From Corynespora cassiicola (taxonomy: Eukaryota; Ascomycota; Dothideomycetes; Pleosporales; Corynesporascaceae): 64,000 bases of DNA. The DNA lies in contig JAEUWY010000021.1 in assembly GCA_022059125.1 (NCBI GenBank), positions 124,001-188,000 of the forward strand, in the 5' to 3' direction. Below, piece by piece: positions 39,414 through 64,000 of the stretch (its first letter is position 1; each line of letters starts with the position of its first letter). A program made the translations under genes and the position numbers. Under the pieces are notes generated by a model that saw nothing but the letters and a program-made list of their open reading frames with translations, was not told the DNA's origin and did no database searches.

Positions 39414-39509
39414 GTATCTGGCGTTTTATCTTTCGCGGTGGTATATTTCATCTGTCTAAGGTTTCTATCTGTCGTTTATATCCAGTTTCCTGTCTTTATC
39501 CTGGCGCAA

Positions 39510-42029: not shown

Positions 42030-42730
42030 GATGCTGTGGCTTGCTGGGCTACTGGTCCGATATGTACAGAATCGCCTGATATATACCCATCCTCGGCAAC
42101 AATACCGCGGCCATGGCGGTAAATGCTGTTCCCTCCGAGGCGGGGAGTAGCGGCAATGAGTGCAGGTGGAGCGGTGTTGTAGGAATGAAGCTATTCGGGG
42201 GGGTTTGTATCCCCTCCGACACACACTACACCATGTCCCCAGCACCATCGGACCAATGCGAGGCCATGATTCTGACAGGCAGCGGGGAGTGTCGGTGTCC
42301 ACATTTCTTCTTTGGGTCTAGACTCAATTCCTGTCGTCTGATCCAATCAAAGACGGTGCCAAGTCGACCGGCTTTTGTGTCGCGGTCGTAATACCGCCGC
42401 CCCCAGCTTTTCGTGGCGCCGCGTCCTGTTCCCGATTCTACTGTCCATGCGTCTTGAATCTAGCAGATTTGAAAACCGCTGGGGCCCCGCGGGGAAATCT
42501 TATCGGATGTCTTCTACCGGGCTCGGGAACCCCGTCAACCGTCTGCGTTACTTGCAGACTCAGAGCGTAGCTTAGCATGGTAGGCTAGGGTTCCTCGATG
42601 CGAGCCTACGGGGGAAGGGATTGGTATAATAACCCTGTCTATCTTTGGGTGGAGTGTGTTTTCTTCGTGCATCTCCTTTCATCGCTCATAATCTTTCTTT
42701 TTGAGCGTGGTATTCGAGCGACAAGCTGCC
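42030..42730. promoter_or_regulatory. Divergent promoter, beta-glucosidase and sugar transporter
   Basis: 701 bases between the two ATGs. An inverted repeat GTAGGCT (42580-42586) and AGCCTAC (42603-42609) lies about 120-150 bases before the transporter ATG, with TATAATAA at 42626-42633 between. CGG/CCG pairs occur around 42105 and 42480. The GGCTA-type core resembles XlnR/Xyr1 sites. Control by the neighbouring zinc-cluster protein is inferred. Confidence 0.45.
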
Positions 42731-44361
42731 ATGACCCCTGAGGACCGCAGACAAGAATATGTTCGCCTCGTTGGCCCTGAACTGGCAGAAGCCCTACCGA
42801 ACGATGGCAAACGTTGGTGGACAAAGTCCAACCTCCTCCATCTCAATGCCGTCCTGGGTATCTGCTGCGTCTCCGCCGCCACTTTGGGCTACGATGGTGT
42901 CCTCATGAACGCCCTCCAGATCAGTCCCACGTGGAAGAACTATTACGATCATCCTTCTCCCGCTCGCCTGGGAGCCATGAACGCTATGCTTCCAGTGGGA
43001 AAAGTGGTTGGCTCATGTGGTGTAGCACCGCTGTCTAACTGGCTCGGGCGTAAGAAGACACTCATCATTGGATTTGGCTTTGCCATCGTTGGAGCAGCCC
43101 TCCAGGCTGGTTCTATCAATTACCCGTTGCTGGTAGCTTCTCGTTTGATACTCGGTATTGGATCTGCCTTCATGTCGCAACCCAGTCCCATTCTTATAGG
43201 CGAGCTGGCCTACCCAACACATCGTGGCAAGATCACCGCACTGTATCAGACCTTCTTCTTTTTCGGGGCTATTGCCGCTGCGTGGATATCTTTTGGTACG
43301 CTCAAGATGAATGGAGATTGGGCATGGCGCATCCCTACGCTACTTCAGGGGGCCCTACCTACGCTGCAGTTGCTCTGCTCATACTTTCTGCCCGAGAGCC
43401 CGCGGTCAGTGTTTTCCAATGCATTCCACTCGACTTCACTACTGACAACATAAACAGTTTCCTTGTCGCAAAGGGTAAGCCTGAGGAGGCTCGCCGACTT
43501 CTAGTCAAATTCCATGCCGCCGGCGACACCAGCTCCCCCCTCGTCGCCCTCGAGATGCTTCAGATCGAGGAAGCCATCCGCCTAGAACGGGATGCTGAGA
43601 AGAAGAACCTCATCAAGGTCTTGTCCAATCCCGCGAATCGCCGCCGTCTCGTCGTCGTCCTCATCCTCGCCATCGCAGCGCAGTGGTCCGGAAATACAGT
43701 GCTGTCATACTATCTCGGACTGGTCCTGGAAGCGATCGGTATCACGGATCCAACACAACAATCCCTTATCAATGGAGGGCTACAAATCTTCAACATGTTA
43801 GCAGCCATGTTCTGCGGTGCGATGCTGGTTGATCGTCTCGGCAGAAAGACCTTATTCCTCTGGTCGGCGGCCGGTATGTGCATATCGTACGTTGTGTGGA
43901 CGGCGCTTAATGCGCGGTTCACTGCGACAAGCTCGAAGGCGGTCGGAATGGCTGTTTTGCCTTTCCTCTTCATCTTCAATTTTCACTACGCTATTGCTCT
44001 CACTCCTCTGCTCTACGCATACCCGACAGAAATCTTCCCTTATGAGCTACGCGGGTTTGGCGTGGCGCTTACACTTTTTGGCGCTAATATAACGCTCATC
44101 ATCGGTTCAGTCGCAAATCCCGTCGCTATGAAGGCGCTCGGGTGGCGGTACTACATTTTGTTTGTAGTCATCGACGCGCTATTCTTTATAGCCGTATGGT
44201 TCTTGTTTCCCGAAACGAAGGGTAAGAGTCTGGAAGAAGTGGCCAAGGTGTTTGACAAGGATGGTGATGGAAGGTTGATTGATGCTGCAAAGGTGGAAGC
44301 AGTACTGGACGAGAAGGTGGCGCATATTGAGATCGGCGAAACGAGAACAGAGAAGATATAA
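42731..44361 (+). CDS. MFS sugar transporter
   Basis: Exons 42731-43404 and 43458-44361 give 525 residues; a GTG-led extension upstream is not needed. Twelve hydrophobic segments are present, with the sugar-porter signatures LGRKKTL between TM2 and TM3, PESPR at the end of TM6, DRLGRKTLF between TM8 and TM9, and PETKGKSLEEV after TM12. Its N terminus and loops resemble fungal lactose/cellodextrin-type permeases. It would import a mono- or disaccharide across the plasma membrane for the intracellular beta-glucosidase next door. Its TAA stop is peculiar: the first two bases are the TA target of a transposon and the third is the transposon's first base, so the natural 3' UTR now lies 15.9 kb away. 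Confidence 0.92.
44359..44360. repeat. TA target-site duplication, left copy
   Basis: The TA directly before the left inverted repeat; the right copy is 60228-60229. Both are flanked outside by A on the right (TAA), so the pre-insertion sequence was also a TAA stop for the transporter. TA duplication is the rule for the Tc1/mariner/Pogo superfamily. Confidence 0.85.
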
Positions 44362-44419
44362 CGTAAAGGATAAGCGAGTCGGACAGACAAGCGAGTCGGA
44401 CAGCCCCCCTAACAGCCCC
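44361..44419 (+). repeat. Left terminal inverted repeat
   Basis: 59 bases matching the reverse complement of 60169-60227, with the first 50 identical and one difference at position 51. It holds two direct copies of AAGCGAGTCGGACAG (44372-44386 and 44389-44403), perhaps duplicate transposase-binding sites. Confidence 0.93.
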
Positions 44420-44442
44420 AACGCGAGCCACCTACACCTATT

Positions 44443-45217
44443 ATGCCACAACAAAAAAAAGTCCAATTAGCCTACAAAGAGGCCTTAGTAATTCTTGCCC
44501 TCTTAGCTATTTAAAATAATTTTATTTAAAATATTTAACGCGCTGCTTCTGCGTACAGTATTTTTTATACTATACTAAGTAATTAATGCGCTAGATGATC
44601 TGCGCGACGCAATTGCTAGCTTAACTTAAAATAGCTAACTAAAGTTAAAAAAAAAGTAGTTATTACTTATATTTTTAAACTAAATTTATAAAAATTTATA
44701 TTTACGCTAAATGCTGTACGCGATATAATTAATTAATTACTTATTACGCGAGACGCAGGCAATATTAGTATTAAGTAGCTTAATAACTTTATTAAGCGTT
44801 AGCTAGATTTTTAAGTTTAATTAACCTGCTAGTAAAATTACTAGCAGATTCTATATAAAAATTTTAAAGTTATACGTTTTTAGTTTAAGTTGCTATATTA
44901 TATAAAAAAAAATATAGTATTTTTAATAAAAACACGTACAACTTTAAGAAAATAAGCTTTATAATAAATATAATATTAGTTTAGTTAGTAATTACAGTAT
45001 TAGACAGACAGAAATAACTTAAAAATACTTAGCTAAGTAATTATAAGTAAATTATAGTAATTTAGAGAATTAACGCGTACAGCTAAATAATTTTTTTTTT
45101 TATTATTTTTACAGATAAGCACTACTTTTTTCTATAGTATAAAAGTAATAATATTTTATTTAATTAGTGTATATTACTTAGCAAAACAGGCTAAATAATA
45201 AATAAGCTAGACGTATG
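44443..45217 (+). pseudogene. Fot1-type transposase, N-terminal part (RIP-decayed)
   Basis: The ATG at 44443 opens MPQQKKVQLAYKEALVILAL, the helix-turn-helix start of Fot1/Pogo transposases, but a TAA follows at what should be a Gln. The same frame continues with recognisable blocks: an RAASAYS helix, the LTKVKKKVVITYIF segment of the CENP-B-type DNA-binding domain, then RINAYS*IIFFFIIFTDKHY of the DDE domain. Many stops interrupt them. The part ends at the 5-base duplication of the inserted retroelement. The sequence fits C-to-T and G-to-A change of a normal gene. Confidence 0.82.
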
Positions 45218-45584
45218 TGTAAGAACACAGAGCGATTTATTTCCGATACAGCTTAAATACTACTTAGAATAAGAGTTTACAGAACTAGAAAATAATTATA
45301 AGTTAGAATCTATAGGTTTTATACGAAAAAACATTTCTAAACTACAGAACTATCTAAAACTATTATAACTTTTTATAGTTTCTTTTTAGCACCTATTCTA
45401 AGTCTAGTCTAATTTAGTTCTATTTTTTAGTTATTATAGAAGAGTATAAAAGAATAAAAGATTAGAGCTAAGTTAGAGCTATATTAGAAGTTAGAAACTA
45501 GAAATTAGATATAAAGTTTTTAATCACGTGCGCGATACTTAGAAGTAAATATATTTAAACTTTATATAAATAAAGTTTATTATA
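45218..45584 (-). repeat. LTR of the outer gypsy element (its 3' LTR)
   Basis: 367 bases, the same length as the partner at 58863-59229. The differences I inspected by eye were nearly all C/T or G/A. Ends TGTAAG...TTATA here, TATAAG...TTACA in the partner, both explained by RIP of TG...CA ends. Confidence 0.88.
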
Positions 45585-48500
45585 TTACCTTTTCTCTAGT
45601 AGACAGATCGTTCTAATCTGATATAATTTATAGCCTATTTAAAAAAAAATATAAATAGTTTTTATTAGAAGCGGGATATTTTATTTTATTATTTACTTTT
45701 ACTTTTAGTGTTTTATAGAAAAAAGCGTTGCGCGTTTGTGTAACTAATAAAATACTTTTATAAAACTACTGTTTAGCAGTTATAAATTTAGTTTTTTAAA
45801 CTTTTTTTTTTTTTTTTTATTTTTTTAATTATTATATTTTGTAAATAGTTTGTTTTAGATTTAGTATCTCTGCTAACTTTTTCTAAAGCTTTTTACTATT
45901 AAATTAGCCCTCTAATTTACTTTATAATATTTATTTTAGTTCTATTTAGTACTTTATTAGTAGTTTACTATAAAATATGTTTACGCGCCTATCGCGCTTT
46001 AGCAAAAAAATATATAATTAATTTTAAATTTAAGTTAACTTTAAGTAAAAAGTGTAAATACTGTACTATTTAAAAAAATTTATATAAGCTAGTATATATC
46101 TAACTTAGTGCGCATTTAAAATAGTTAGCTAATATTTTATTTTAGATTTTAGAGTACTGCGCTGCCGAGTATAAAGTATTAATATAAGCTATAAATAACT
46201 AAAAAAAAACTTTAATAATTTTATTTTAATTATTATAGTAAAAATCGCAGCTAAAGCTGTTTTAGTTATAGTTTAAATAACTAAAGCAGAGTCAGAACGT
46301 ATACAAACTAAAAAAATATTACTAGCTATTTATATAACTCTAAAAGTAATCTACTAAAGTGTAGAAAAAATAAATTAAAAGCTAGTTAATTTAAAAACAG
46401 CTTTTTTACGCAGTCTAGTTTATATAAATAAAAAAAAAACTGCTAAATTTATTAAGTTTTTTTTAGTAAAGCAGTTTTAGTAAATAGACTAGTTAGATAG
46501 AAATCTGCTAGAGCTTAATAAGAAGTCTAAATTAAAAAATTCTAATAGTAATAAAAATCTAATTTTTAATAAAAATAAAAAAACTAGTAGTTAGTCTAAA
46601 GAGGTTTCAGAATTAAACTTAAAAAAAATTCTAAATAGAAAATTTAATAATTATTCTACTCTACTCTATTATCTTACAAGTAATCTATATTTTTTATTCT
46701 CTATTTTTATATTTAAAGCTATTAGTTTAAAAACTAGAGAGATTCTAGCTTGTCTAAATACTTATTATAAAAAATTTTTAACTTATATAAAGCTTTTATA
46801 AAGTTAAATATATTATACTACACAGAATCTAGGTCGTATCTAATTTAGTTTATTTTATACTTTAGTAATAAGCGTATAAGTTTACTAGTAAAAATATTTT
46901 TAACTTTTTATTTTTCTACTTTATTAATTAGTACTCTAATTAGTTTTAGAGCTTTTTATTCTAGAAATAGATTAGCAGAGTTTTTATATAAAATATTTAG
47001 TATAAATATATTATAAATTTTTAATTTTAAAAGTAGTTTAAAGCAGTACAAATAATCTACTTTCTCTAATACTTTAAAAAAATCTGTCTACTGTTCAGAC
47101 AGCTTTCAGCTTAGTTTTATAGATATTAAATTTTTTGTACTAAAATATATTTAATTTTTAATAGTTTAGTCTATTTAGTAATAGTAGAGGTTAACTTAGA
47201 CTTATATTTATTTCTAAACTTTTTTAAAATTCTCTTTCGTAAGCTTTTATACTTTATATATTTATAAAGTAAGTACTAAAACGTTTTAGTAATTTAGTTT
47301 TTTTTAAAGCTTAGAAGGTTTAGATTTTTTCTAATACTAACTCTAACAGAGTTTAGAACTAAATAAAATTTAATACAGAGTTATTTCTAAGCTTATATAT
47401 AGAAAAGTAAGTTAAGCGCGATCTATTAATAGCAGAAGTTTACTTTAGTTATTTTAATAGTAGCTTATAAATAGCTTTAGTTTCTAGTTAATATATCAGT
47501 TTATAATCTTAGTTTAGCTATTAGTTTTTTTATAGTAAGTAGTAAATAGCTTAATTTTAACGCTAATAATACAACAGAATTTAGACTAGAAACTAGAAAT
47601 AAACTATAGTTTTTAGTTTAATATAATCGTCTCTAAAGTGTGTTTAAATTAGTATATCTACTAAATAAACAGATAGGCTATACTATATACGTTAGTGTTT
47701 TTATAACATAGAATTAATACAGCTTACTTAGAGAGTTAATTAATAATTACTAAAATTTAGTTATAGCTAGTTTTATTACAGAGAAATTTTTTAAAGTTTA
47801 TGCAGAAGTGTTATATAAAACAGTTTAAAATAAAAAGAAAATAAATCTTTTTAGCGGGACAGATTTATTTTAGATATATTTATTAACAGATAAAGCAGTT
47901 CTATATATATTACTTATATAAATTTTCTATACTTTTTTAGTAGTACTTCCGAGCTAATAGCTAGTAGATTTTTATAGCGCTAAAGTATGCTAAAAAGACT
48001 TAGTTATAAGCTTTTTGTATTAAGCGTGTAATAAGCGTAAAGTTCTAAAAAATATATAGTTAATATTAGTATAATATAAATTTATTATATATTTAGTACT
48101 AGTTAAAAAAGTTTTCGCGTTTTTTTATAAAGCTTAATTAATTTTTTTTTAAAAAAGTATTAATAAGTTTAAAAGAGTTAAAACTTATAAAGTTTTTTAG
48201 AAATATTATATATACGCGAGCTACACACTTAGTCTAAACTCTAATATATTTTTAAACTAATTTAGCGTTAATTTAGAAATTAAAGTAATGCAGTTTAATT
48301 AGCACGCGAAAACAGTTATTTTACTATATAGCTAAAAAAAATTTTATATTTTATTCGCAACGGCTGAAGATATCAGCTCTAATATTATTTTTATTTAAAG
48401 TATATTTAATTTAAAAGTTAAAAAGCGCTAGTTTTTCTACCTATTTTACTTATCTAGTATTTAGAATTTTAGTTATTATAAAGTATTCTAGTAACCTATA

Positions 48501-49296
48501 ATTAGAATATATTTAGACCTAATACTTTATAGAAAAAAAATTAGTTTACTATTTTTAGAAAGCGGTAATAATAGTAAAAAAATTTTTATTATATATTTTT
48601 TAGTTAAGCTTAGAACCGGATAGAATTTTGCTGTAAAAAGTATATAAATACTAATTTCTATTAGTATATTGCTGAAACTGTACGTCTGTAATAGCGCTAT
48701 TAGATATATTAATTTTTAGTTTTATAAATAGTTTAGAGTTAAAATAATAAAAAGTTAAAATAGAAAAAAGAGAGTTTTTTAAAGCTTTAAATGTTTAGTT
48801 ATATTTTTAAATCTATTTAAAAAGTACAGCGAGGCTTTAAAGTATACTAATTAATAAAGTAATATAAAAATATTTTAGTATAAATTATTAGTAAAAGCTA
48901 GTAAATCTAAAAAAGAATTTTATTTTTATAATAGTAGTAAGTCAGGCTTAGTTCTGTAGAGCTTTAACTTTTTCTAAATCTACTTCTAGTTTTTAGTTAG
49001 TTAGAATATATTTTAAATATTAGGTACGTTTTATATAAAATTTAGATTTAGCTATATCTACTTATAGTCCAGCTTAATATAGTTATTTTAAAACAGTTTT
49101 AATATACTAGATATAAATTCGTTTATTTTTAGAGTAGATAAAAATATTATCTAGATATGTAATGCAGAAGTTATTAAAGTAGTTAATTAGAACGTTGTTT
49201 ATATATTACTGGAAAATAACTAGTCTGTTATATAACCTAAATAGAAAAATTTTATATTTATACGTTCTGTATTATATTTAGAAAGTAGTATATTTT
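45585..49296 (-). pseudogene. Outer gypsy pol, 3' part: end of RT, RNase H, integrase
   Basis: On minus, 49296-49000 gives the second half of reverse transcriptase (YINNVLINYF, then ITYLDNIFIYS, the YLDD box with Asp changed to Asn, then AGL*VDIAKSKFYIKRT). About 48700-48250 gives an RNase H domain with LLEYF and a C-terminal VEKLALFNFKLNI-type segment. The rest, toward the LTR, should be integrase by gene order; I did not identify its motifs. All parts are broken by stops. Confidence 0.65.
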
Positions 49297-49665
49297 TGTT
49301 ATAAGCCACAAACGTGGGCTAATGACGGGGCCGACAGAGTCGCACCGCTATAGCTGGTTACGTAATATACTTAGTTAATCAGTCTGCTTAGCAGTACTAA
49401 GCAACTAAGCAGTACTAAGTAGAAGCCTTAGGCATATATATATAGTTCGCATAATTATACTTTATAATTATATTTACCTTATTAGCAAATCTATTATTTA
49501 AAATTAACTATTAACCTATTATACTCTATCGCTAACACAGAGACCTGTATAATATATCACACATCGTTTCACTTACGTAACTCTACTAGTACTTATTTCT
49601 AAGAATTAATCTAAGCAGCTACTAGCTCTCTAGCTTTACTTATAGCCTATAGCACAGTTTTAATA
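49297..49665 (+). repeat. 5' LTR of the inner gypsy element
   Basis: 369 bases beginning TGTTATAAGC. It matches 55737-56105 (TATTATAAGC there) over its full length; in the parts I compared by eye, all differences were transitions. The partner ends TTAACA. Confidence 0.9.
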
Positions 49666-49914
49666 TTGTAAACACTTTTTAAGATAAGTACCACTTCAGG
49701 ATCACGCGCACTTTTAACTTTAACTAGTAGCACTATTAGTACTAAAGCTACTACTAGTATAATTATATAATCTAACACGGCAGATAATAATTCTATTAAA
49801 GTAGCAATATCTAACCTCTATTATAGAGAACGAAGTAAGCTTAAAGACTAGCTCTTACAGCTCAACTTATTCTTTAACTTCTAAAGTAGAAACGTTAAAA
49901 AAAAAAAACGCGTT

Positions 49915-50640
49915 ATGTTTGCAGCTACGTATATAAAAAGTAAAACACTTTAATAGATTAAACTAGCTTTTATTAAGTATAAGGACGGCGAAGCCAATAA
50001 CGATATTAATAAATAGATAGAAAACTTTAACAAATTTAAGAAAAAGATTAAACAAGTTTTCAGAGTCTTTAATAAGAATATAATTGCCGGACAAGCTATT
50101 TAATATTTTAAACAACGGGCTTTAGCTGCTAACTATGCTAATAAATTTTAGTAACTGTTAATCTTTACTAAATAAAATAATAAAATACTTATAATAATAT
50201 ACTGTTAAGGACTTAAATCTAACGTTAAAAAAGAACTTATGCGTTTTAGAGCTCAGCTTAACACGCTTAAACAACTTATAAACAAGTCTATTAATATTAA
50301 TTAGAAACTGTACGAACTACGAATAGAATTACGCTAGAACCGGAACTTAAAATACAAATAACGTACTAAACTAAGCTATAGTAAAAAGTACTATAATACT
50401 AACACCGGTAAACGAGTTGAACGCAAGGTAATGTATTTTATTTGTAATACTTATAGTAACAAACTAATAGTTCTTGGTAATATCTAGAAAACGGGACAAA
50501 AAAGTAATAAAAAGAGAAATAATAAGTTTAAAAGTAAAGCTATAACTTACTACGCGTGTGGAAAGACAGACTATATTATAAAAGACTGTTAATTAAAAAA
50601 TAAAGTTGTTTGACAGCTAAATATATTACAAACTACTCTA
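49915..50640 (+). pseudogene. Inner gypsy gag, decayed
   Basis: A frame from the ATG at 49915 (MFAATYIKSKTL) runs through a helical, Lys-rich capsid-like part interrupted by stops at Trp and Gln positions. It reaches a zinc knuckle at 50548-50589 (YYACGKTDYIIKDC), which is a CCHC box whose first Cys and His have both become Tyr. Both are single transitions (TGC to TAC, CAC to TAT). Confidence 0.7.
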
Positions 50641-52429
50641 AATAATAAATCCGACGCAGATAATAAATAAAAAGTTATTATAGATAAATTTTATAAAACA
50701 GAATTTATCTGCGACAGCGAACTACTGCGAAACAGAAAAACGGAAAAATTTTTTAATTATGTTTAGTATTAAGACGAAAGCACTTAGACAGAGCCTAAAA
50801 GTATTTTTAAAAAAGTTAAGTTTAAAGAACTTAGCTTTAAAAAAAAAAAAGCTTTTCGCGAAGTATATAATTATAAAAACTATTCGAGTAACGCTAATTA
50901 CGAGTTTAAAAAAAATAGTAATAGCAGCACGCCACCCGAACTCGCACAATTCAAAATAAATAAAAACTTTAAAAAGATATAAAAATTAGCTAAAGCTCTT
51001 AAGAAACATAAAAAAAATTTAATAAGAACGCCTGTATAGTAGAAAAAATCACCTGTAACGCGTAAACGGTTAAAAAAGTACTACAACTTAGATAAGAAAA
51101 ACTAAGACTTAGAGGAACGCCGATAACGCCGTAGTTCTAAAGTATAGAAATAAATTAATTAACCAGATTTAGAAATCAGACTAAAAGTTCTACTAGACTC
51201 TAATAATAAACTAAATACGGTTCTAAGTTTTCTACGAAGCTAAAACACGTAAAAACTATAATACTATCTAGATCTAAAAAATCTAAAGTATGTAAGCTAT
51301 TTATAGACATTCTGCAGAAAAAACTAATATCAGATCTATTACTTAAATAAGGCAGCAGTAGAATAGTTTCTGAAGAAACTACGTAAATATACGCAACAGT
51401 AGTTTAACTGCGAAATACACGTATATAATACTTATTTATAAAATAAATAATAAGCGCGACACTTCTCTAGAATAAATAAAAATAAAGAACTCGCAATAAA
51501 TATACTAGTTAATAGAAGATATACGTAAGATCTTTAGTAAACGTGCTTACACAAAAATTACAAATATTACTAAAATAAAAAATACGTGTATAGATTTAGT
51601 AACAAGTTTTTTTTAGAATAACATCTAGCGCCTAGAATAGACTTAAAGTATTATACGCTACTAACTCAGAGAATTTAGTTAAGCTACCTGTTAAGCTTAA
51701 TAGATACTAAATAAAAAGATTATTAGATATAGAGGTTTAGCGTAACTACTTTTTACAGCAGGCTATAAAGCGTAGTAAAGCAAAAACGCATACCTACAAG
51801 CGACTCTATTTTCTCTACACAGTAACTAGAAAGAAAATACTAGAAAAAGCATTAATAGATTAAAAAGCTACGACTATTATAGACATCTAGAGACACCAGA
51901 AAGAAATTTTCTTTAATATTATAGATACGGCCATCTACGACGTTATTTTAGAACTTCTATAGTTTAGAAAGTATAACTTATACATTAATTGGGTAAAAAA
52001 GAAGCTTTTATTTATAGAATGTGATTACGCTATTATATTAGTATCTACGCATTAGCAGCGTTTAATAGTAGATAAAATTACGCTAAATAATATAGGCAGC
52101 AAAAAATTAACTAAAACGCTTTTAAGAAGAAAGGTTGACTCTACTAAATCTAATAAGAAACTACTAAATAAAAAAATAAAAGTTTTAGAAATAACTCGCG
52201 CAACTCCTATAATCTCTAAAAAATATAATAAATAGAAACTATTTTTTTAAGAAGAGGTAGACGACAGAGCGTTATCTAAGCATCAGCTCTAAAACTGCGA
52301 AATAGCCTTTTAGAAAAAAAAGTATCCGACTTTCGAGCCTATTTACAGTTTATTAGAAAAAAAACTCGTAGCGTTATAAGCATATCTTAATAAAAACTTT
52401 AAAAAAGAATTTATACGCGAATTAACGTC

Positions 52430-53600
52430 AGAGGCGGGATATCTAATTATTTTTATTTCTAAGAAAGATAGATCTCTACAGTTATGTGTAGATTTTAGAA
52501 AACTTAATAACATTACAGTTAAAAATAGATATCTACTACTAAACATTTAAAAACTTAGAAATAAGCTATTTAGAGTATAAATATTTATAGTTTTAGATCT
52601 CTGAGGCGCGTACAACTTAATACGCATAAAAAAAGGTAAAAAATAGAAAACAGTATTCTGAACGCAGTATAAGCACTATAAATATTTTATAATACTATTT
52701 AGTCTTACTAACGCATCTGCGATATATTAGATACTTATTAATAATATATTAAGAGCACATCTGGACATATTTGTTATCGTATATCTAGATAATATTCTAG
52801 TCTTTTCTAAGAACTTTAAAGAACACGTCCAGCACGTATAAATAGTACTAGAATATTTAGAAAAAGTAAGGCTACGACTTAAACCAGAAAAATGTAAATT
52901 CTATAAAAAAAAAGTTAAATTTTTAGAATATATTATAGGAAGACACGGAGTTAAAATTAGTTTAAAAAAAATTAAAGTAGTTAAGAACTGGCTTACGCTA
53001 AAGAACGTTAAAAATATATAATTTTTTTTAGAATTCTGTAACTTTAACAGACAGTTCATTAATTATTACTTAGAAAAGATATTACTACTTATAAAATTAA
53101 TAAAAAAAGATATACTTTTTAAGTAGAATACAGACTAACAACAAGTTTTTAAAACACTTAAAAAAACAAGCATATTACTACCAGTTCTTATATTCTTTAC
53201 TAGTAGAAAGCCCTTACGCATGGAAACGGACGCATTAAACCTAGTAATAGAAGTATATATTAATTAGGAGAAAAAAAGCAAATAGCACCCGATTATCTAT
53301 TACTTAAAAAAATTTAGCGGAGCTAAAGAAAATTACAACGTTTACAACAAAAAATTACTTACTATTATAGACTTTTTTAAATATTAGCGGATTTACGCAG
53401 AAAGCTGTTTAGAACTTACAGTATATTCGGACTACAAAAATCTAATAACATTTATAATAACTAAACTATTAGACCGACGACATACCAGATAGAGTAAAAA
53501 ACTAAAATAATATAAATTTAAAATTATCTACACACTAGGTAAGAAAAATAGAAAAGCAGATACTTTAAGTCGAAGAACGGATATTGCAGAAACTAAGTTA
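52430..53600 (+). pseudogene. Inner gypsy reverse transcriptase and RNase H, decayed
   Basis: From about 52437 the frame reads LIIFISKKDRSLQLCVDFRKLN, NITVKNRY, VLDL*GAYNLIRIKKG and, at about 52774-52810, VIVYLDNILVFS, the catalytic YLDD box with the second Asp changed to Asn. RNase H follows near 53210-53590, ending in the GKKNRKADTLSRR hallmark. Stops fall mainly at Trp codons. Protease should lie before it, between the gag and here, but I could not place it. Confidence 0.75.
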
Positions 53601-53689
53601 ATAAACGAAGCTGCTATTTTTAAGCAAGCGCTAGACAGCACTCTAAAACCAGCACGCAGCATTAATTTTATTATAATAGTATATTAATA

Positions 53690-54965
53690 AGTACTAAAAA
53701 AACTTTACTAAACTATTATTTAGCAGTATTACGAAGATCTGTTACACAGACACCTAAGTGTTAAACAGATAATCAAATTAATACGACGAACGTACGACAT
53801 TTCTAGATTAAAAAACAAAGTAACGAAGTTTATTAAGAAATGTATAATATATTAAAAAAATAAGTATAGCATACACGCTTAGTACAGAGAACTATAAGCT
53901 GTAAAAATACTAGATAAACCCTAAACAGACATTGCTATAGACTTTATTACTAAACTACTAACGTCTTATAATCTAGTTTCTAAAGTACTTTATAATGCTA
54001 TTTTAGTAGTTATAGACAGATTTACGAAGTACGCAAAAATAATTCTATTTAGAGATAACTATACTGCGCCGGAACTAGTATAGGTTATTTTAAATCGCGT
54101 AGTTAGGTATTACAGACTATCTTAATTAATTATTAGCGACAGAGATAAACTCTTTATATTAAACTACTAGACGATACTAATATCAGCTATTAGAATTAAG
54201 AGAAAATTATTAACGGTATACTATCTACAGATAGACAGTTAAACAGAGAAAACAAACTAGACTATAAAAACATATCTACGGATGTATAGCAACTAAAAAC
54301 AGAATAATTAGATATTACTACTACTTATAGCACAACTTATATTTAACAACAGAGAATTAGTAATAATAAAACAATTTTCTTATTACGCATTACACGGGAC
54401 ACACCTAAATCTTCTATTACTAAAAATTAAAAAAGAATAAATTAAGCCAGTTGTAAGTTAAGTAATAGATAAATTAAAAAAATTATAAGAACTTTACAAA
54501 TAACTACAGAAGAATATTAAAACAGCACAACGTAAAACTATTTTTTATATTAACTAAAAACAAAAAATAGTATTTTAGCTAAAGAAAGAGGATAAAGTGT
54601 ATCTTTTTACAAAAAATCTTTAAACAATATAACTAAGTAAAAAATTAGATTACGTTAAAGTCGGACTATTTTTAATTTTAGAACAAAAGAGACTAGTTAA
54701 CTATAAACTTTAACTTCCTGCTAATACTAGAATACACCTAGTATTCTATGTGTTACTATTAGAATCTGCTGACGCCGAAACATTAGTCTAAAAATACTTC
54801 TATTACGAAACAGAAGAAAAAGTTAAATTTAAAGTAGAAGCGCTAGTAGACTACTACAAAATAGAACAAGATAAATTTTATAATATCTACTTCGCACAAG
54901 AATAGTTAGTTAAATAAAAAAGATACCTAGATTCGGAAAACACTTAGAAACTAGAACAAAACTTA
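53690..54965 (+). pseudogene. Inner gypsy integrase and chromodomain, decayed
   Basis: An HHCC-type segment (LLHRHLSVKQIIKLIRRTYD to FIKKCIIY, 53740-53855) leads into the catalytic core (IAIDFITKLLTS, ILVVIDRFTKYAKII, about 53930-54050). At 54838-54965 a chromodomain can be read: VDYYKIEQDKFYNIYF, LVK*KRYLDSENT*KLEQNL. Both stops stand where chromodomains have conserved Trp. A C-terminal chromodomain marks the chromovirus branch and directs integration to heterochromatin. Confidence 0.72.
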
Positions 54966-55199
54966 AAAAACTGTCAGTAACTACTTAAAAAAAGCTAAAG
55001 ATAAAATTACCTCTACTACTACACAGAAGTAATTAAAAAAAATATATCTAAAGAAAGGCGATATATTGTATACGACCAAATACTTAAAAACCAGCAGATA
55101 ATACAGATACTTTCTAGAAGTTGTTAGAAAAACTCTTAATAGCGCTCTAAGTGCTTAAAAAAAAGTTAAAAGCAAAATTTTTAGAAGAACTGTTAAAAG

Positions 55200-55653
55200 T
55201 AAAAACTTTAGATAACGCTTCGCGTTCCCGCTGCTCTTACTTCTTTAAGTTTTATTTTTTTACTAATATAGCTTTTTCCGCACGATAATTAAGTAAGTTT
55301 ATCTGTTAATAAAGCTGCTTTTTTTTAGCTCTCGCTATCTGCAAGTCCTTTAAAGTTTTTTTATACACTTTTACAGCCGCATCCTGCGCTTTATATAACT
55401 CTTTTATCTGTTATTATAATTTTTTTTTTTTTTTAGTAAAACGCTAGAACTTAGACTAAGTAATACGAATATTACACTGCTGCCCGTAATACAGACACTT
55501 ACTACACTTTCCGGAACAAATATATACTTTATACACTTGTTTATGTTTTACGTAAGTCAAATACTTTTAAACTATAACTTTTTCTACAGTTTTAATAAAA
55601 TTAGCTAGGCAATAACAGCAGACAGTACTAGAAACTGTTAGTATTTTAGGCAT
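55200..55653 (-). pseudogene. Antisense Cys-rich and coiled-coil frame in the inner gypsy element
   Basis: On minus, the ATG at 55653-55651 opens a 28-codon run (MPKILTVSSTVCCYCLANFI...) and one TAA. The same frame goes on with VYICSGKCSKCLYYGQQCNI before the next stop. Past a long T-run (55423-55438), a helical Lys/Glu/Ala-rich part reads on (KELYKAQDAAVKVYKKTLKD, then QIARAKKK...), down to about 55200. It looks like a former gene on the strand opposite to gag-pol: two Cys clusters, perhaps a zinc-binding domain, followed by a coiled coil. Function unknown. Similar antisense frames occur in some plant and fungal gypsy elements. Confidence 0.55.
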
Positions 55654-55723
55654 TGTTGCAAAAGTAGGCAGTAACAAAAAAAACCCGCGCGTTATATATT
55701 AGCTTAAAAAACTAAGCTAAGCT

Positions 55724-55736
55724 AGAGAGGGGATAG
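55724..55736 (+). other. Polypurine tract of the inner gypsy element
   Basis: AGAGAGGGGATAG immediately before the 3' LTR; the plus-strand primer site expected for an element in plus orientation. One T interrupts it. Confidence 0.75.
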
Positions 55737-56105
55737 TATTATAAGCTATAAACGTGGGCTAATAACGGGGCTAACAGGGTTGTACTGCTATAGCTAGTTA
55801 CGTAACGTGCTTAGTTAATTAGTCTGCTCAGCAGTACTAAGCAACTAAGCAGTACTAAGCAGAAGCCTCAGGCACATATATATAGTTCGCATAATTATAC
55901 TCTATAATTATATTTATCTTATTAGCAAATCTATTATTTAGAATTAACTATTAATTTATTATGCTCTATCGCCAACACGGAGACTTATATAGTATATCGC
56001 ACATCGTTTCACTTACGTAACTCTACTAGTACTTATTTCTAAGAATTAATCTAAGCAGCTACTGGCTTCTTAGCCTCGCTTATAGCCTGTAGCACAGCCT
56101 TAACA
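55737..56105 (+). repeat. 3' LTR of the inner gypsy element
   Basis: 369 bases paired with 49297-49665. The final TTAACA keeps the CA end, while the starting TG has become TA. Confidence 0.9.
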
Positions 56106-58862
56106 ATTTTTTACTATTAAAATTTATTTAAATTTTATTAAATACAGCGTAAATATTTAACTTTATAAAAATTTTAGCTTTACTAAACTTTGCTAAAAGT
56201 TTATTTATTCTAGATATTAGATAGATATTTTTTTTAGTTAAAGCGTTTAGTTTATAATAGTTAATATATACTCTAAGCTTTTTATTTATTTTATAAATAT
56301 ATAGAATAGATAATACGAAAAGACTCCGACTTTACTTAATAAAACTATATTATAGTTAGATTATTATAAACTTCTAAATAGCTTTAAGTTTTTTAAAACT
56401 CTATTTATACAGAAAACTGTAGCTGTTTAAAAAAAGTTTAGTAAAAATAATTTTATAGTTATAAAATTAGTAAAGCAGAAAATAGAGTGCGGCCTTAAAG
56501 TTAAATATATTTTAGTATATTTAATATATAAAAAGAAGTTAGAACGGTGCTAGAACTACAGTATTTTAAGTTTTAAAAAAAAAATTTTTAATTAGTTAGT
56601 TAATTTTAAAAATAGTTGTCGTAAAAAATTTATTTTTAAATTATTTTATTTAGAAATAAAAAGTATTAGCTAAAATAGCAGCTATTTAAAAACTTTAACT
56701 AAACTTAGAATCTAGTTAAAAGTTAGTTAGAAAAAAATATCTAAGCTAAAAAAGTTTTAGTTTTTAGAGTTAATACAGATAAGTTTCTAAGTTTTAATAG
56801 TATCTAGTTTAGTTAGCTTTTTAGAGAGCGTTTTTTTAGAAAATATCTTGCTCTGCACTCCAGCTAGTAAATAGTTAGTATAAGTATTAAAGTATAAGTA
56901 GAGTAAATATATATAAAAGTAGATACTAAAAGAGCTAAATAATCTAGTTATATTCTATATCTAGTTTAAGTTTAAATTTTTTTATTTATTTTAGACTGAT
57001 AATGCAGTTTTGGGATCTAAAGTTAAAAATAATAAAAAAGTAATTTAGTATTATACGTTTATTTAGACGAAAATAAAAGCGGATATAATAAGTAACTAAA
57101 AATTTAATTAAATTTTAGAAGCTGTGTACTTTAATCTAGTAGAGCAGTTTTTAAATAAGAACTTAAAAAGTATAAAATAATAAAGTTGTAATAGAAGTAT
57201 TAATAAACAAAAAGCTTTATACGCTAGTATTAATAAAAAAATATAAATAAATTCTAAATCTATTAAAATAGAGAACTAAAAGTACTTTAAAGTGCTTTTT
57301 TTCTAGTAAGTTTAAAATCTTTATCTATAATAAGTCGTACTTACCTAAACTTAAAATAGAAAATTTTTTTAAACGTTTTTATTTTTTAATTAGAATAAAT
57401 CTAAGTTACAGAAGTTAATTATGTTTTTAAATTAGTTATATAAATTATTTTCTATATTAATTTAGCTTACTTATAGAAGATTATAATTATATATAAAATA
57501 GTTTTACTTACTACAGTTGTAGCAGTTCTCTTCTACAGTCTAAACTAATTTAAATAGTTTACTATTTTTACGTTAGTACAGTAGTTATAACTCTATACAG
57601 ATAGTATATTAGTAAGTAGTTTTTTTTTTTTTATAGATACTGCGGATAAGCTAGGTGGCTTCTAGTTCTCTAAAACTTTAAATATAGTAAAACTAAAGTT
57701 ATTTTTTCTACTTCTACTAATAGTAAATACAGAGATATTTTAGCGCTCTATATTATAGACAGAGAAATATTTTACTATATTATTAAAAAAGTTATTTTAT
57801 AGAGATTTAAATTTAAAGTTTAGAACTCGCAGAGCTGAAGTAATCTTTTCTTATAAGTAAAAAAACTATTTTTTTTTATACTCTGCTCTTAATAGCAGTA
57901 GATAGAAATTAGACTTTAAAAGTAGAAAAAAGTTTTTTTTATTTTATCTGCAGCTAGTAAAAAGCTACTTAATTTTTTACTTTTTTATTTTTTAAAATAA
58001 AGTATAATTTTAGAAGATTAAGTATTTTCTCTGCGTTAAAAAACTGTTTTTAAAAGTTATTAGCTAAGTAACAGAGTTCTAAGTATTTTTAAACTAGTTC
58101 TAATATATATTTCTAAACTTCTGCTATATAGGCTCGCTTAGTAGAATAGTAGTTTTAATTAATATTAAAGTAATTTTAGATAGAGGCTAGCTATTATAAA
58201 AAAGTAACAGTTTTTTTATTACTAAAAAACTTAATCTTAAAAATCTGCTTAGATAATTTTATTTAAACTAAAATTAAAAGTAATTTAAATAGTTGTCAGA
58301 TACGAGTTAATAGTAATAGTTTTAGTTATTTTTTATTTTAAAAAAAAGAGTCTGCAGCGGCGGTTTTAAGTTTTAGTATTTTAGCTTATAACTGTAGAAT
58401 TTTTACTTTTATTAGTATAAAATAAAAATTATTATTATTAGGTTAGAGTTAGAATTTAGTAAATTTTAGATTATTATTAAAAGATTAAAGCTGTTTTTAC
58501 AGCTGGCTTAATTTTTAAATAGCTTTTTCTATAGAAGTATTTAAAAAGTATGTAGTACTAGACATTAATAGTTAAAATTAATTCTAGTAGATTTTTAGTA
58601 GTTATTTAGTTTTTATTTTAGTGTATAACGCGTTTTTTTTAAAAGTAATCTAACTTACGTAGAAATAGAAGTTCTAAATCTAAAAGCTTTAGTTATTAAA
58701 AAATTTAGAAAATTTTAATTTTACTAAAAATTAAAAATATATATAGTAATTTAAAACAGATCTAATCTAATACGTGTACTATCTAGTTATACTTCTCTTT
58801 ATAATAAATAAAGAAGTAATATTTTTAAGCTGTTACTAGCGAAAAGTAGTTTAGAAATATAA
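56106..58862 (-). pseudogene. Outer gypsy element, 5' part: gag region and start of RT
   Basis: On minus, 56450-56106 reads as the N-terminal half of reverse transcriptase, ending KAKIFIKLNIYAVFNKI, the (K)xFTKLDxxxAFxxI segment. It stops exactly at the inner element's insertion point and resumes at 49296. The region 56500-58862 must hold gag and protease by gene order, but decay is so heavy that I could not name any motif. Confidence 0.6.
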
Positions 58863-59229
58863 TATAAGAACACAGAGTGACTTGTTTTTAATATAGCTTA
58901 AATACTACTTAGAATAAAAGTTTACAGAACTAAAAAATAATTATAAATTAGAACTTATAGGTTTTATACGAAAAAATATTTCTAGACTACAGAACTATTT
59001 AAAACTATTATAATTTTTTATAGTTTCTCTCCAGCACCTATTCTAAGTCTAGTTTAGTCTAGTTTTATTTTTTAATTATTATAAAAGAGTACGAAAAGAT
59101 AAAAAATTAGAGCTAAGTTAGAGCTATGTTAGAAGTTAGAAGCTAGAAATTAGATATAAAGTTCTTAATCACGTGCGCGATACTTAGAAGTAAATATATT
59201 TAAATTTTATATAAATAAAGTTCGTTACA
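58863..59229 (-). repeat. LTR of the outer gypsy element (its 5' LTR)
   Basis: 367 bases paired with 45218-45584. Followed by the duplication copy GTACG (59230-59234), which is the unmutated form of the left GTATG. Confidence 0.88.
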
Positions 59230-59234
59230 GTACG

Positions 59235-60150
59235 TTAGCTAAAGTATTTTAATATTTATATTTAAAGCTGTATAGTAAAGACGTACTAACTACTTATTAT
59301 TAATAGTTATATAAGCTATAACTTTTTTGTCTTTTAAGATCTCTGCAAAAAAAATAAAATTATTACTTTTTATATACTTCTGTATTTATTATATTTTTTT
59401 TAGCTACTTAATATAGAGTGTTTTTCGCCTTTAAAGCGCGCGTATAGTAATAAAATTTTTAGCTTAGTACGTAATTATATTAACTATATTAATAAAATTA
59501 CTTTTCTGCCGGCTTTTAAAAAAGCTTTTAAATAATTTTTTATAAAAACTAATATATACGCAAGCTTCTAAAAAGCAGAAGTAGTTCTGTATAATTTAAA
59601 AGCTGTATTATTAAAGTTTAATATAAAAATACGCACGCCTACGCTAGTTTTTAAAACTATTTAGTAAAAAACTAAAACACTAAGTAACGCGTACGAGCTA
59701 GATACTTAGTTAATATTAATTTAAAATAGAATTAAAAAATATAAAAATTTATTACTAGCTTTAATTATTAAAGCGCTTACTTAGTTTAATAAAAGTGCTG
59801 TAATACTAATTTATAAAGTTATATTACTTTATACGTAAGTTAAAAATTTTTAAAAAGCTAATAAAGCTGCTACGCAGCGTATAAAGTAAAAAAAAAAAAC
59901 AAATTTAATATAAAAAAACTTTAATAAAAGCTAAAAAAGCTAAAATTATCGCTTAAAAAAATACTAAAAAGTAATTAAATAAAAAAACGCGTAAAAGCAA
60001 AACTTATTTTAGTAGTAGCTAGCAGGTAAAAACGTGCTGCACACGCTACAAAAAGTAAAAATATAACTTTTATACGTGTAAAACAGTAGTATAACTACTG
60101 TAGTTACTTTCTATATTAATTTATTATTGTGTTTTTCTAAAGTGGTTGAG
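59235..60150 (+). pseudogene. Fot1-type transposase, C-terminal part (RIP-decayed)
   Basis: Continues the transposase after the retroelement. It shows KKNKIITFYILLYLLYFFQLLNIECFSPLKRAYS, split by no stop near 59350-59450. This matches the (N)KIxxLCxPPHSSHxLQPLDVGCFxPLKxAY block of Pogo-type DDE transposases, with Pro, His and Asp residues lost by transitions. Then come ITFLPAFKKAF and KTLSNAYELDT, and near 60035-60085 a decayed zinc knuckle (CCTRYKK*KYNFYTCK). The exact end is uncertain. Confidence 0.8.
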
Positions 60151-60168
60151 TAGGTGGTAGTGCGCAGA

Positions 60169-60227
60169 GGGGCTGTCAGGGGGGCTGTCCGACTCGCTTG
60201 TCTGTCCGACTCGCTTATCCTTTACGT
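60169..60227 (-). repeat. Right terminal inverted repeat
   Basis: Reverse complement of 44361-44419 with 50 identical terminal bases, then one mismatch and eight more matches. Followed by TA (60228-60229). Lies only about 40 bases outside the heavily mutated interior yet shows no sign of RIP. Confidence 0.93.
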
Positions 60228-60648
60228 TAAGCAATGATATCGCAATTCATGAGACATGGGGAGAGGAGAGATATGTGTGACGGTAGCGTGCGTTGTAGAG
60301 CAGTTCTGGGGTTGTAATTCCTCCATGGTCAATAGTGATACATCTCGAATCTTGTATCCCGGTTGTGAACATGTGCTGTTTGCGACGAAATGGTGTCGAT
60401 TACGAGCAATCCATCCTTCAGACTCGCGGCGGTCAGGGACGCCACAATGTCACTGAGTGTTAAAGTTGACCACAGAATACTCTGAAAATTATTTTGTAAC
60501 GTTTTTCTGTAAAGCTTGTGTCAAAAGAATGCTTCCTCTGTTAGTAGACTTCAGGTTTAGTAGTTTCATAAGCACACTACCACGCAATATTCGGTAGTGG
60601 CGCATGCTGATGAAAAAATTCTTAAATTACTCAATTTCAACAAGAATG
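60228..60648. other. Spacer right of the transposon
   Basis: 421 bases of ordinary composition. It begins with the TA duplication and the former 3' flank of the transporter gene, so it probably contains the transporter's original terminator. No gene; one 66-codon frame is not believed. Confidence 0.55.
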
Positions 60649-63600
60649 CTACCGAATCCCACCAAGCCGAGCAATTTGATCGTGCGAAAGATTCTCCTTT
60701 GTTTCCTTGATATACTTTTCAAACTGACCAGCCACTTCTACCACATGTCCAAGATGTTTATGGTTCAGATCCTCTCCTCTAAATTTGGCAAGTTGTCTTC
60801 CAATGGTGATGGCGTTGCGTATCTGTCGTCCATTGAGTTCTTCCTTGGCCAGATTTTCCATATTATGATTGATATCGTCAAAGTCGACATTCTGCTCCTT
60901 GATGTCTCTTAGTCGATTGAGAAAATTCTTCCATATGCGACATCGTTGCTCTTCATTGAAGTTCGGATAATGTAGTGAGAGCGATATTCTGGACTTAAAG
61001 GCTTCGTCAAACGTTCCCACACGGTTAGATGTAAGTATAAGAATGCCGTCATAGTACTCCAGCACACGAAGAAATACCGATACCAGAGCGTTACGAGCCA
61101 GATCTGCTATCCCCCTCTCTTCAAGAAAAACATCAGCTTCATCAAGAAGCACCACACAGTCCCATCTGTTTCCAAGATACAACACTGATTCAAGGTACTT
61201 CTCGACTTCCTCTGGTTCAGTACCAATATCACCACAACTAACAGGGTAGAGAGGCTTCTCAGCCATTTCAGCAACACTCTCTGCAGTAAAGGTTTTACCT
61301 GTACCTGGGCTACCATGAAGAAGGATGATTAATCCATTACCCTTGCCGTGAATAAGATCTGTGTTCTGATGATTGGATATGCGATCCGCCATGAGAGCTT
61401 GAACAAGCTCTTTGGTCTTATCATCAGCCACAAGATGGTCGAAGGCTTTTTTGTTCCATAAGACCTCGGTGATATTGTCGACTTCCAGGTCGACTTTGAG
61501 GTGTTAGTTATAAGTGAAACAGAACATTTGGGGATACTAACCCCATCGCTTACGGCGTAATGAAAATCCAGCAATGATTGGAGGAAAGAGGTATATTTCA
61601 GGAGCTGTAGGAGGTTCACTGTTGCTCATCTCATCCATGTACATCATCATCTCATTTTCGGGTACATTGTACATGTGCGAGTAATCCTGCCTCCGCTTCG
61701 ATTTCTGAGCCTCAGCGTGGAGCTTTTTATACGATTCATTATCGATCATGTATCTTTCCCCATTCTAGCATAATGGTTAGCGATAGTTCGGTGAATAGAA
61801 TGAACAAGATCAAATCATACTGTATCTAACGTGCCCTCTTCATCACCTCTGTAGGATATGAGTTTCTTGACTCGACAAGACCAGAACGTAGTCCCCCTCC
61901 GAGAAAGCTGTTTTTCCAGACTTTTCTCAACATATTGAATTGGTACAAAATTAAGTTCAGTGAGAGGCACTTCATCTTCTTGGTTTTTGGCTCTCAGTTT
62001 GAGGTGTAGGTTGGTGTTTTGGCGGAAAAAATGGCCATCATATCTAATAGACCAACAGGGTACGTTCCACGCCCATAAACAATCGGACTCTACATTGTTG
62101 GATTCTTTTGAAATTTTGTGAGCAGGTTTCTCAAACGTTTGTGTATGATGGTTATGGTCTGGAATCTTCTCCAAAGCCGGCATACCATGTAGCCGATATG
62201 CCTTAGTCTTTCCCTGGCCTCCTGATACAACAACATCTCCAGTATTGAAAACGTAATCGACGAAGTTGTAAGATATGTTCCCTCGAGATATCATTTGGTC
62301 GAATTGATCGTATCTCTCCGCATAGTTGGCCTCGATCCAATCAAACAGTAACTTCAAATGTGTCTGATGCTTCACATTTAATGTAAATGGAGCCTGTCTG
62401 GTTGACCTATAACCATACCAAAACATATAAGGTGCTCTGATTTTGTCAAATGGAGCATATGCTTTGGCTTTTTCTACTTCAAAAATTGATCTTATGAAGT
62501 TTTCGAAGGCCAGGCGCAGATCTTCAGATACGATGTGAATATCTTCAGAAAATGGCTGTGGGCTAGGTAATACACCCGCTTCCAGATTTGCTGCCACATC
62601 TGACTTCTTCATGCGAGGCGCGCTATACGATCTGTTTATGACAAAAGAGATTTCTTCATTTTTTCTCAAATGATCATCAAGGTCAATTAGTGGTAGCTGA
62701 GGCCTTAATTCTAGATTTGAATTCGTGCTGAAGGTCCATGTGGGCTCTTGAAGACAGAAAATTGTAGGATTAGATTCGATACGATGAAGCACCTGAGATC
62801 TAGGCTGTCGAGGCATCCTTTCTCCTTGAACAGCTGGAGGATTCCGATTTTCAAGGCGCTGAATTCTTTCCAAGAGTTTACTTATAAGCTCTGATTCATT
62901 CGACACACCGTATTGTGATACTAATGCGTCTACCTCAGGTTGTGTAAGACGTGGGAGCATTCCATGTCGATTTGTTTCCGAGAATATTCCAAGGGCGGCG
63001 GATCCGGATGGGGGCAGGAAATCAGATGTAGCCATTGTATTAGGTTCAGTATCTGACACTGATTCCAACCAAGGGTTAGACATCGTATTTGAGCCACCGT
63101 AAGAACTCAACCCTGTATTTAGGAACCGATTAGTCCGAAGGTGTCGTTCTGGGTGATTCAACATGGCTAACGCTGATTGTTCAAGCAACAATCTTCTTCG
63201 TCTGTTTTTTTGCTCCAAAAGCGACGGTTGGATTCCAATGTCTTGTAACACGGAATGGGCCCACGGAACCCCTTCTTCAGTGATAGCCTCGAAGACTTTA
63301 TCGACTTCGTCGTCAATGGCTAGGAGCCTTTCGTTTTTGAAATTACTGGCTTCTGTTTGGTCCCGTGATATGGTCAAAGCTTTAGTGATATCGAGATATG
63401 GATCGACGGTTTCTTCGACTTCTCTTTGACGGGACTCTTGCTCAGCTGCGGGCTTAATTTGGATGGTTTGCCAGATATTCCCAGGCGATTGTTCTTGATC
63501 CTTTCTTTGGCTATGATCCTCTCCTTGGCTATGATCCTCTTTTTCACTCTGATCCTCGCTTCCCCTGTCTTCTTCGCTATTTTCTAGTTCATTATATTGT

Positions 63601-63755
63601 TGGTCTTCTTGGAAATCTTCATCATCTTCTTGAGACAAGGATAGTTCTGAATGCTCAGCCTCGTCACTATCTTGCGTCGAGCTTGATCGGACAGAAGATG
63701 ATCGCGTGGGTCCGATCCGAGAGGGAGGTTTCGAGAAGGGGTGTCCGGCCAGCAT
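60649..63755 (-). CDS. AAA-family ATPase with fungal DUF7025-type N-terminal region
   Basis: Exons 63755-61821, 61764-61542 and 61493-60649 give exactly 1000 residues. The first 130 residues are acidic and repetitive (EDHSQ units), probably disordered. A middle region (CLQEPTWTFSTNS to SYRGDEEGTLDT) resembles the DUF7025 domain found before AAA modules in many fungal proteins. The single AAA module has Walker A GSPGTGKT, Walker B VVLLDEAD, sensor-1 ILTSNRVG and a FNEEQRCRIWKNFL lid. Such proteins are related to BCS1/26S-type remodelling ATPases and are numerous in filamentous fungi; no substrate is known. The ATG at 63755 is the first in frame that I can support; another 5' exon is possible. 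Confidence 0.82.
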
Positions 63756-64000
63756 TTGAGATGCCAGGCTGGAGATTGATGGCGAACAGTCTCCGGCAAT
63801 CCAAAAGAATACCCAAGATATACCCCTCTATATGACTAAGGAATAAGGCAACTGCCAAGATAATCTGTACAAGCTCAGATGTGGTATAGACTGCTTAGTC
63901 ATCACTGAATACGGTGCTTGGCAATAACCCTGCACTTGACTTCAGGCTATATGCTGCATAACGTGCAGTCCTTTGCTCTTCGATTGCATACGGCTGTTTC
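63756..64000. other. Window end, upstream of the AAA ATPase gene
   Basis: 245 bases, either promoter or a further 5' exon. Nothing recognised. Confidence 0.4.

Follow-up and report, generated by a model that had tools for sequence, protein, structure and literature searches.

A three-layer transposon nest in Corynespora cassiicola, its RIP damage, and undamaged relatives of its innermost element

A stretch of 64,000 nucleotides from the fungus Corynespora cassiicola (the window; C21:124001-188000 in an assembly of 23 contigs and 44.35 Mb) contains a 15.9-kb AT-rich island between two ordinary genes. This locus raises the question of how such an island starts, how it grows, and what it can tell about the history of repeat-induced point mutation (RIP) in its host. 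The island consists of three transposons placed one inside another: a Fot1/pogo DNA transposon, a minus-strand Ty3/gypsy retroelement within it, and a plus-strand chromodomain Ty3/gypsy retroelement within the second. A reading of the letters without database searches (the sequence-only reading) had proposed this arrangement, and its geometry, including borders, duplications and layers, is as described and hardly open to doubt. All three layers are damaged by RIP, while at least 19 other copies of the innermost family are identical and undamaged. The features of the nest, with terminal inverted repeats (TIRs) and long terminal repeats (LTRs), are the following (window positions).

44359-44361, plus strand: TAA stop codon of a sugar-transporter frame (the empty site keeps the last residues and the stop)
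44359-44360: left target TA of Fot1, the TA of the transporter's TAA stop
44361-60227: Fot1/pogo element, whole, including its inserts (TIRs and target TA)
44361-44410, plus strand: left TIR of Fot1, 50 exact bases (inverted-repeat comparison)
44361-45217, plus strand: left piece of Fot1, 857 bases, including GTATG at 45213-45217 (alignment to uninterrupted copies)
45218-59229, minus strand: second layer, Ty3/gypsy, interrupted by the third layer (LTRs, homologous copies)
45218-45584, minus strand: the second element's 367-base LTR at its own 3' end
49292-49296, no strand: left copy of the third element's target duplication, ATTTT
49297-56105, plus strand: third layer, chromodomain Ty3/gypsy (LTRs; reverse transcriptase, integrase-zinc and chromodomain profiles)
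49297-49665, plus strand: 369-base LTR at the 5' end of the third element
52461-52934 (C21:176461-176934), plus strand: RVT_1 profile match over the cut-off, 77.5 bits, 7 internal stops
53697-53867 (C21:177697-177867), plus strand: Integrase_H2C2 profile match over the cut-off, 37.1 bits, 3 internal stops
54828-54992 (C21:178828-178992), plus strand: chromodomain match under the cut-off, 20.9 bits, 4 internal stops
55737-56105, plus strand: 369-base LTR at the 3' end of the third element
56106-56110, no strand: right copy of the third element's target duplication, ATTTT
58863-59229, minus strand: the second element's 367-base LTR at its own 5' end
59230-59234, no strand: right copy of the second element's target duplication, GTACG (left copy GTATG, 45213-45217)
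59235-60227, plus strand: right piece of Fot1, 993 bases, ending in the right TIR at 60178-60227 (alignment to uninterrupted copies)
60228-60229: right target TA of Fot1

The outer borders are fixed by the two perfect TIRs, which together with the TA outside them form an exact inverted repeat of 52 bases, far above the 15-21 bases obtained in 10 composition-keeping shuffles. The two Fot1 pieces add up to 1,850 bases, the length foreseen for the empty element and also that of the uninterrupted copy L025 (L-numbers denote repeat regions retrieved from the window's own genome for alignment), where window bases 45217 and 59235 map to neighbouring positions. Furthermore, both pieces were aligned to each of 20 Fot1 regions of the genome, and the end of the left piece adjoins the start of the right piece in 20/20, so that the pieces belong to a single family; 10/20 were covered nearly at full length, and two regions (L030 and L040) bear insertions of their own. 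Assignment to Fot1 was obtained by homology, through a DDE_1 (pogo-type) transposase match of 78.3 bits found by profile search in L044, a copy of the window's subfamily (4 transversions against the window pieces). The window copy itself has no DDE_1 match among the matches listed. The match in L044 spans the insertion point of the second element, in accordance with the claim that this element had entered the transposase. The Fot1 copies fall into two subfamilies, one comprising L025-L028, L044 and the window (2-9 transversions from L044), and the other L031, L033, L034, L037, L042 and L043 (73-80 transversions from L044).

The inner layers are delimited by their LTRs, with the 367-base pair lying in Fot1 between GTATG and GTACG and the 369-base pair lying further inside between two copies of ATTTT. 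The statement that every layer keeps its duplication intact thus holds for the TA of Fot1 and for the third layer, but not for the second, where the two copies differ by one C/T. Each LTR pair represents one family, since its members differ by gap-free transitions only (38 and 42, respectively); together with the single Fot1 family, the sequence-only reading has thereby withstood both conditions that it named for its own refutation. A target duplication requires that the flanks of an insertion overlap by its length in an uninterrupted host; for the third insertion the overlap is exactly 5 bases in the uninterrupted second-element copies L045 and L046, and a separate placement test gave the same 5-base overlap for both window insertions.

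The second element combines its LTR pair and 5-base duplication in the window with the Ty3/gypsy order of reverse transcriptase before integrase, which is seen in the homologous copy C5:44837-52046 (profile searches; RVT_1 at 47861-48253 and Integrase_H2C2 at 49251-49403, on the same strand). Its window pieces show a weak RNase H match (E 0.12). Counted from the edge of that copy matching the window's left, the third insertion falls at about 4,079 and the RVT_1 match at 3,793-4,185, which supports the view that the third element had landed in the reverse transcriptase of the second. The opposite orientations also stand: the minus strand of the second element has a purine-rich stretch before one LTR, the plus strand of the third has a purine-rich stretch and the three profiles, and both carry motif pieces that we take to be reverse-transcriptase-like. 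In the integrase zinc-binding region of the third element, a stop-free piece also matches Integrase_H2C2; the short stop-free pieces of the nest otherwise gave mostly no match to Pfam, or likely chance ones (Cyclin_N, RHH_3). The third element has the domain order of a chromovirus, i.e., reverse transcriptase, integrase and C-terminal chromodomain, the last being over its curated cut-off of 25.1 bits only in undamaged copies, which score 59.2 at the place matching the 20.9 bits of the window.

All three layers have almost certainly been mutated by RIP. Their TA/AT values (1.63-1.89) and (CA+TG)/(AC+GT) values (0.27-0.47) are past the thresholds of 1.15 and 0.75 given in the available text of PMC7882544, whereas the flanks of the nest are normal (0.64 and 1.24-1.34, respectively). 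Compared with an undamaged copy over 5,157 bases without gaps, the third element of the window carries 1,227 substitutions, of which 1,138 are C>T or G>A, and CpA was changed at 0.69 (plus) and 0.76 (minus), above CpC, CpG and CpT, which is the RIP pattern on both strands. In a comparison of 49666-55736 with L047/L048 (a 5.2-kb piece), the changed sites were 159/172 for TCA, 160/177 for CCA, 107/200 for ACA and 74/156 for GCA, next to 19/159 for ACT and 12/131 for GCT; RIP at this element depends on both neighbours, with a strong 5' pyrimidine preference beyond CpA.

The differences between the LTRs of the two window pairs amount to 80/80 transitions, with 0 transversions and 0 gaps. As LTRs are identical at birth, both retroelements had inserted before RIP acted on them. 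Insertions are often dated by the divergence of their LTRs, but this approach was dropped here because all differences are of the RIP type and give no age; only the nesting orders the events. Fot1 shows a further peculiarity at its ends: against L044, its least damaged copy, 1/107 reference C or G was changed in the outer 100 bases of both ends, 4/34 in the next 50 bases and 308/637 deeper. In ten other Fot1 copies the changes were 188/906 in the outer 75 bases and 2,943/6,366 beyond 150, so the sparing of the ends is general and strongest in the window copy. An effect of the flanks was not borne out as its cause: the GC-normal L031 is spared and L028 beside a damaged repeat is not, but the outer 25 bases escaped damage in several copies between AT-rich flanks as well.

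A different picture is offered by other copies of the innermost family. The DNA family searches scored the best 40 candidates, and the family counts are lower bounds; for the LTR of the third element, the best 40 of 217 candidates comprised 38 places that are 100% identical and two at 96%. The 38 places form 19 pairs, each 6,441 bases apart, at which the reverse transcriptase, integrase-zinc and chromodomain profiles score identically and a frame of 1,187 amino acids is free of stops. Equal five-base duplications were found in 17/19 of these undamaged copies. All have AT-rich flanks: TA/AT is at least 1.21 in 38/38, the substrate index of 0.75 is also passed in 35/38, and GC is below 0.35 on both sides in 17/19 (maximum 0.365), as against 0/95 of the 500-base window steps outside the nest. 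Four flank pairs are common to more than one copy, leaving 34 distinct flanks. Eight of the 19 lie two-sidedly within Fot1 (3), the second element (4) or the third element (1).

One undamaged copy, C4:847474-854284, sits within a second-element copy that is itself within a Fot1 copy, at sites differing from those of the window. This Fot1 aligned only over positions 129-358 (left) and to about 918 of 998 (right query), and its ends are thus outside the aligned part. With it, C4 holds a second nest built in three layers from these families, RIP-marked outside and with an undamaged core. Nested transposons are ordinary in fungi, and the two nests could be taken for successive waves of family invasion; this was ruled out, as each of the three families was found inside every one of the three, which makes nine host/guest combinations:

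Fot1 as guest: in the second element, L026, L037; in the third, L038; in Fot1, L027, L036
Second element as guest: in Fot1, the window, L047/L048, solo LTR L117; in the second, solo LTR L108; in the third, L046
Third element as guest in Fot1: L050, solo LTR L040, L070/L071, L076/L077, L096/L097
Third element as guest in the second: the window, L062/L063, L064/L065, L072/L073, L088/L089, L130/L128, L136/L131
Third element as guest in the third: L080/L081, solo LTR L120

The order at one locus is therefore not the order in which the families arrived, and the proposed succession of Fot1, second and third element holds for the window locus only. The placement test covered 49 placements, 24 with a two-sided host and 25 without, a ratio that is not a rate; four solo LTRs and some relics were included because a host had already been hinted at for them, and the Fot1 regions L029, L030 and L032 were excluded from the Fot1 rows. 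Inexact overlaps (-16 for L046, 13 for L108, 4 for L036, and 7 each for L117, L120, L040 and L130/L128) are as expected with trimmed alignment ends. Three separate insertions (L047/L048, L076/L077 and L040) fall a few bases apart at Fot1 positions of about 355-361 (window 44715-44721); coming from two families and affecting three Fot1 copies, they mark a possible hot spot of retroelement integration.

The insertion site of Fot1 is a stop codon. The first base of the element, A, is also the last A of the transporter's TAA, and since Fot1 starts with this base, the stop was restored and the length of the protein left unchanged. In the reconstructed empty site the final residues and the stop are the same, and the transporter protein of a Philippines strain has the same end residue; the frame itself shares 297/300 residues with a C. 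cassiicola protein. The right neighbour, an AAA-type ATPase frame (60649-61431), is on the minus strand and faces the nest, so that the island lies between the ends of two convergent genes. GC is 0.20-0.27 in the layers, compared with 0.54 (30000-44358) and 0.44 (60230-64000) outside, in keeping with the description of an AT-rich island between ordinary genes. Other ordinary neighbours are a glycoside hydrolase family 3 frame (39510-42302, minus strand) and, beside the ATPase frame, a DUF7025 frame (61815-63755, minus strand).

Taken as a whole, we hold the following account with good confidence. Fot1 inserted at the TA of the transporter's stop codon, between the two convergent genes, after which the Ty3/gypsy element entered its transposase and the chromodomain element the reverse transcriptase of the second. 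RIP hit all layers, in the retroelements after their insertion, but left untouched the genes on either side and, at the edges of Fot1, the outermost 100-150 bases. Fot1, which needs a TA and lands in ordinary DNA, may turn into H3K9-methylated heterochromatin once RIP-marked, and the chromodomain integrase may steer new copies into such DNA; a DNA transposon would thus seed an island that grows by nesting. MAGGY has a chromodomain that binds H3K9 in its methylated form and is able to redirect integration to such sites (PMC2832683). By this analogy, targeting of heterochromatin-like DNA is likely in the third family, and the siting of its 19 undamaged copies is consistent with it. These copies were presumably made after RIP last acted, as expected where sexual reproduction is rare or absent, and in the simplest account the window nest would have been complete before that last action and the 19 copies would be later.

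Read further, the nests could be strata that record how sex came to an end, with RIP having last acted between the third insertion of the window and the burst of 19 copies; we put this forward tentatively, as somewhat less than probable, and a lasting stop of RIP likewise falls a little short of an even chance. If the stratigraphic reading were true, the family would have multiplied since without a check by RIP, yet its chromodomain would confine the copies to islands that RIP had made, and an old defence of the host would now be building landing sites.

Several observations weigh against the main account. Two of the 19 undamaged copies, C8:148-6958 (L078/L079) and C6:247039-253849 (L082/L083), have unmatched duplications, and each of their flanks equals the flank of another copy over 140/140 bases (the C4 nest and a C11 copy, and copies on C20 and C7); these two are the product of either ectopic recombination or misassembly. 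The damage is graded, as shown by copies with one or two stops and by the two LTR places at 96%, so that RIP need not have stopped long ago, and the idea of a sharp division of the copies into damaged and undamaged was dropped for the same reason. In 36 of 5,138 gap-free columns, the three relics that were examined all differ from the undamaged copy in a way that RIP cannot explain, with the same base in 30, and the undamaged burst may therefore come from a sister lineage. The perfect identity of the copies could be overstated by assembly polishing. The background for their siting is that of the window alone, and relics and older families are likewise in AT-rich DNA. Finally, the plant chromovirus LORE1 is described in PMC2832683 as having no strong preference for heterochromatin.

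The graded damage also speaks for the idea that RIP is still active in cryptic sex and that the 19 copies are too new to have passed meiosis. RIP is a process of the sexual cycle (PMC10234303, PMC3441728), and the genome has an uninterrupted alpha-box MAT1-1 match and an open frame for a predicted RID-type methylase (C1:4273995-4274870), 97% identical to a C. cassiicola entry and 41% over 326 residues to an entry of Neurospora intermedia, and the matches include Neurospora and Sordaria entries named "RIP defective". Both mating types exist in this crop pathogen (PMC10512278), although the same source states that no sexual structures have been observed and that the species is considered clonal, and the 38 LTRs of the 19 copies are without any RIP-type change. 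Ongoing cryptic sex is a serious possibility, a little short of an even chance. The data of a single strain fit an end of RIP as well as a mere pause.

An account without targeting, in which selection purges genic insertions and AT-rich islands collect every family, would make the chromodomain irrelevant. In its favour, all three families nest in each other, including those in which no chromodomain was shown, and AT-rich DNA lies on both sides of 20/20 second-element and 20/20 relic third-element LTR regions, one side usually being the element itself; purging keeps some weight. However, Fot1 persists in GC-normal DNA, as in the window copy and, with a GC of at least 0.36 on both sides, in 3 of the 19 others measured at both flanks (L031, L035 and L040), whereas 0/19 undamaged third-element copies have two such flanks (the maximum of 0.365 is on one side only). 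Moreover, copies without any LTR difference are probably too young for much purging. We therefore regard accumulation alone as unlikely, and retain chromodomain targeting. That repeats of the three families were misjoined and the nesting is only apparent is extremely improbable: the shared flanks of the two copies with unmatched duplications indicate that joins at repeats do occur in the genome or the assembly, but in the window the TA pair, both 5-base duplications, the piece lengths and the single-copy flanks all agree, and damaged copies, which differ by RIP, are not easily confused.

Genome-wide profile searches scored at least 150 reverse transcriptase and at least 101 integrase-zinc matches; some of these belong to other elements or to genes. 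The genome of another C. cassiicola strain was called low in repeats, with 19,930 bp of interspersed ones (PMC5840194); set against our counts, this means that transposons may be under-counted in the species. Among the papers found that name both the species and repeat-induced point mutation, none is titled on Corynespora repeats; the term RIP is absent from the available main text of PMC5840194 and PMC8235470, as is Corynespora from that of PMC12543289 and PMC7882544.

Some repeat matches are paired at constant offsets with equal scores, namely C5:3884259-3902509 with C2:5463670-5481920 (offset 1,579,411) and the end of C8 with C18 (offset about 2,327,902), pointing to duplications that are large and recent, or else to redundant contigs. 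At C1:922589-951558, Fot1, reverse transcriptase and integrase matches of equal score lie on opposite strands in mirror order, like an inverted duplication of about 29 kb.

With regard to known systems, the outer layer shares with the Fot1/pogo (Tc1/mariner) elements of ascomycetes the TA target, the long TIRs, a length of about 1.85 kb and DDE_1 (the last seen in L044, a less damaged member of its subfamily), and differs in being RIP-damaged and split by a 14-kb insert. Leptosphaeria maculans has AT-rich isochores packed with transposons, with nested families, RIP, a sharp fall in GC and genes at the edge; the nest described here is instead a single 15.9-kb island with a nameable first insertion and an exact site. 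The third element resembles the MAGGY-type chromoviruses in having reverse transcriptase, integrase zinc and chromodomain in one frame, a 5-base duplication and insertions in heterochromatin-like DNA (for the targeting by MAGGY, PMC2832683), a likeness of features; what differs is the presence of at least 19 identical copies free of damage, accompanied by many RIP relics. Such mixtures are already known in kind, since damaged and complete elements in one genome, together with a RID-like gene and no observed sexual stage, have been reported for Verticillium dahliae (PMC3441728). In C. cassiicola, by comparison, nests of the same three families with damaged and with undamaged cores order the events, and comparing them from strain to strain could show when RIP, and with it presumably meiosis, was last active.

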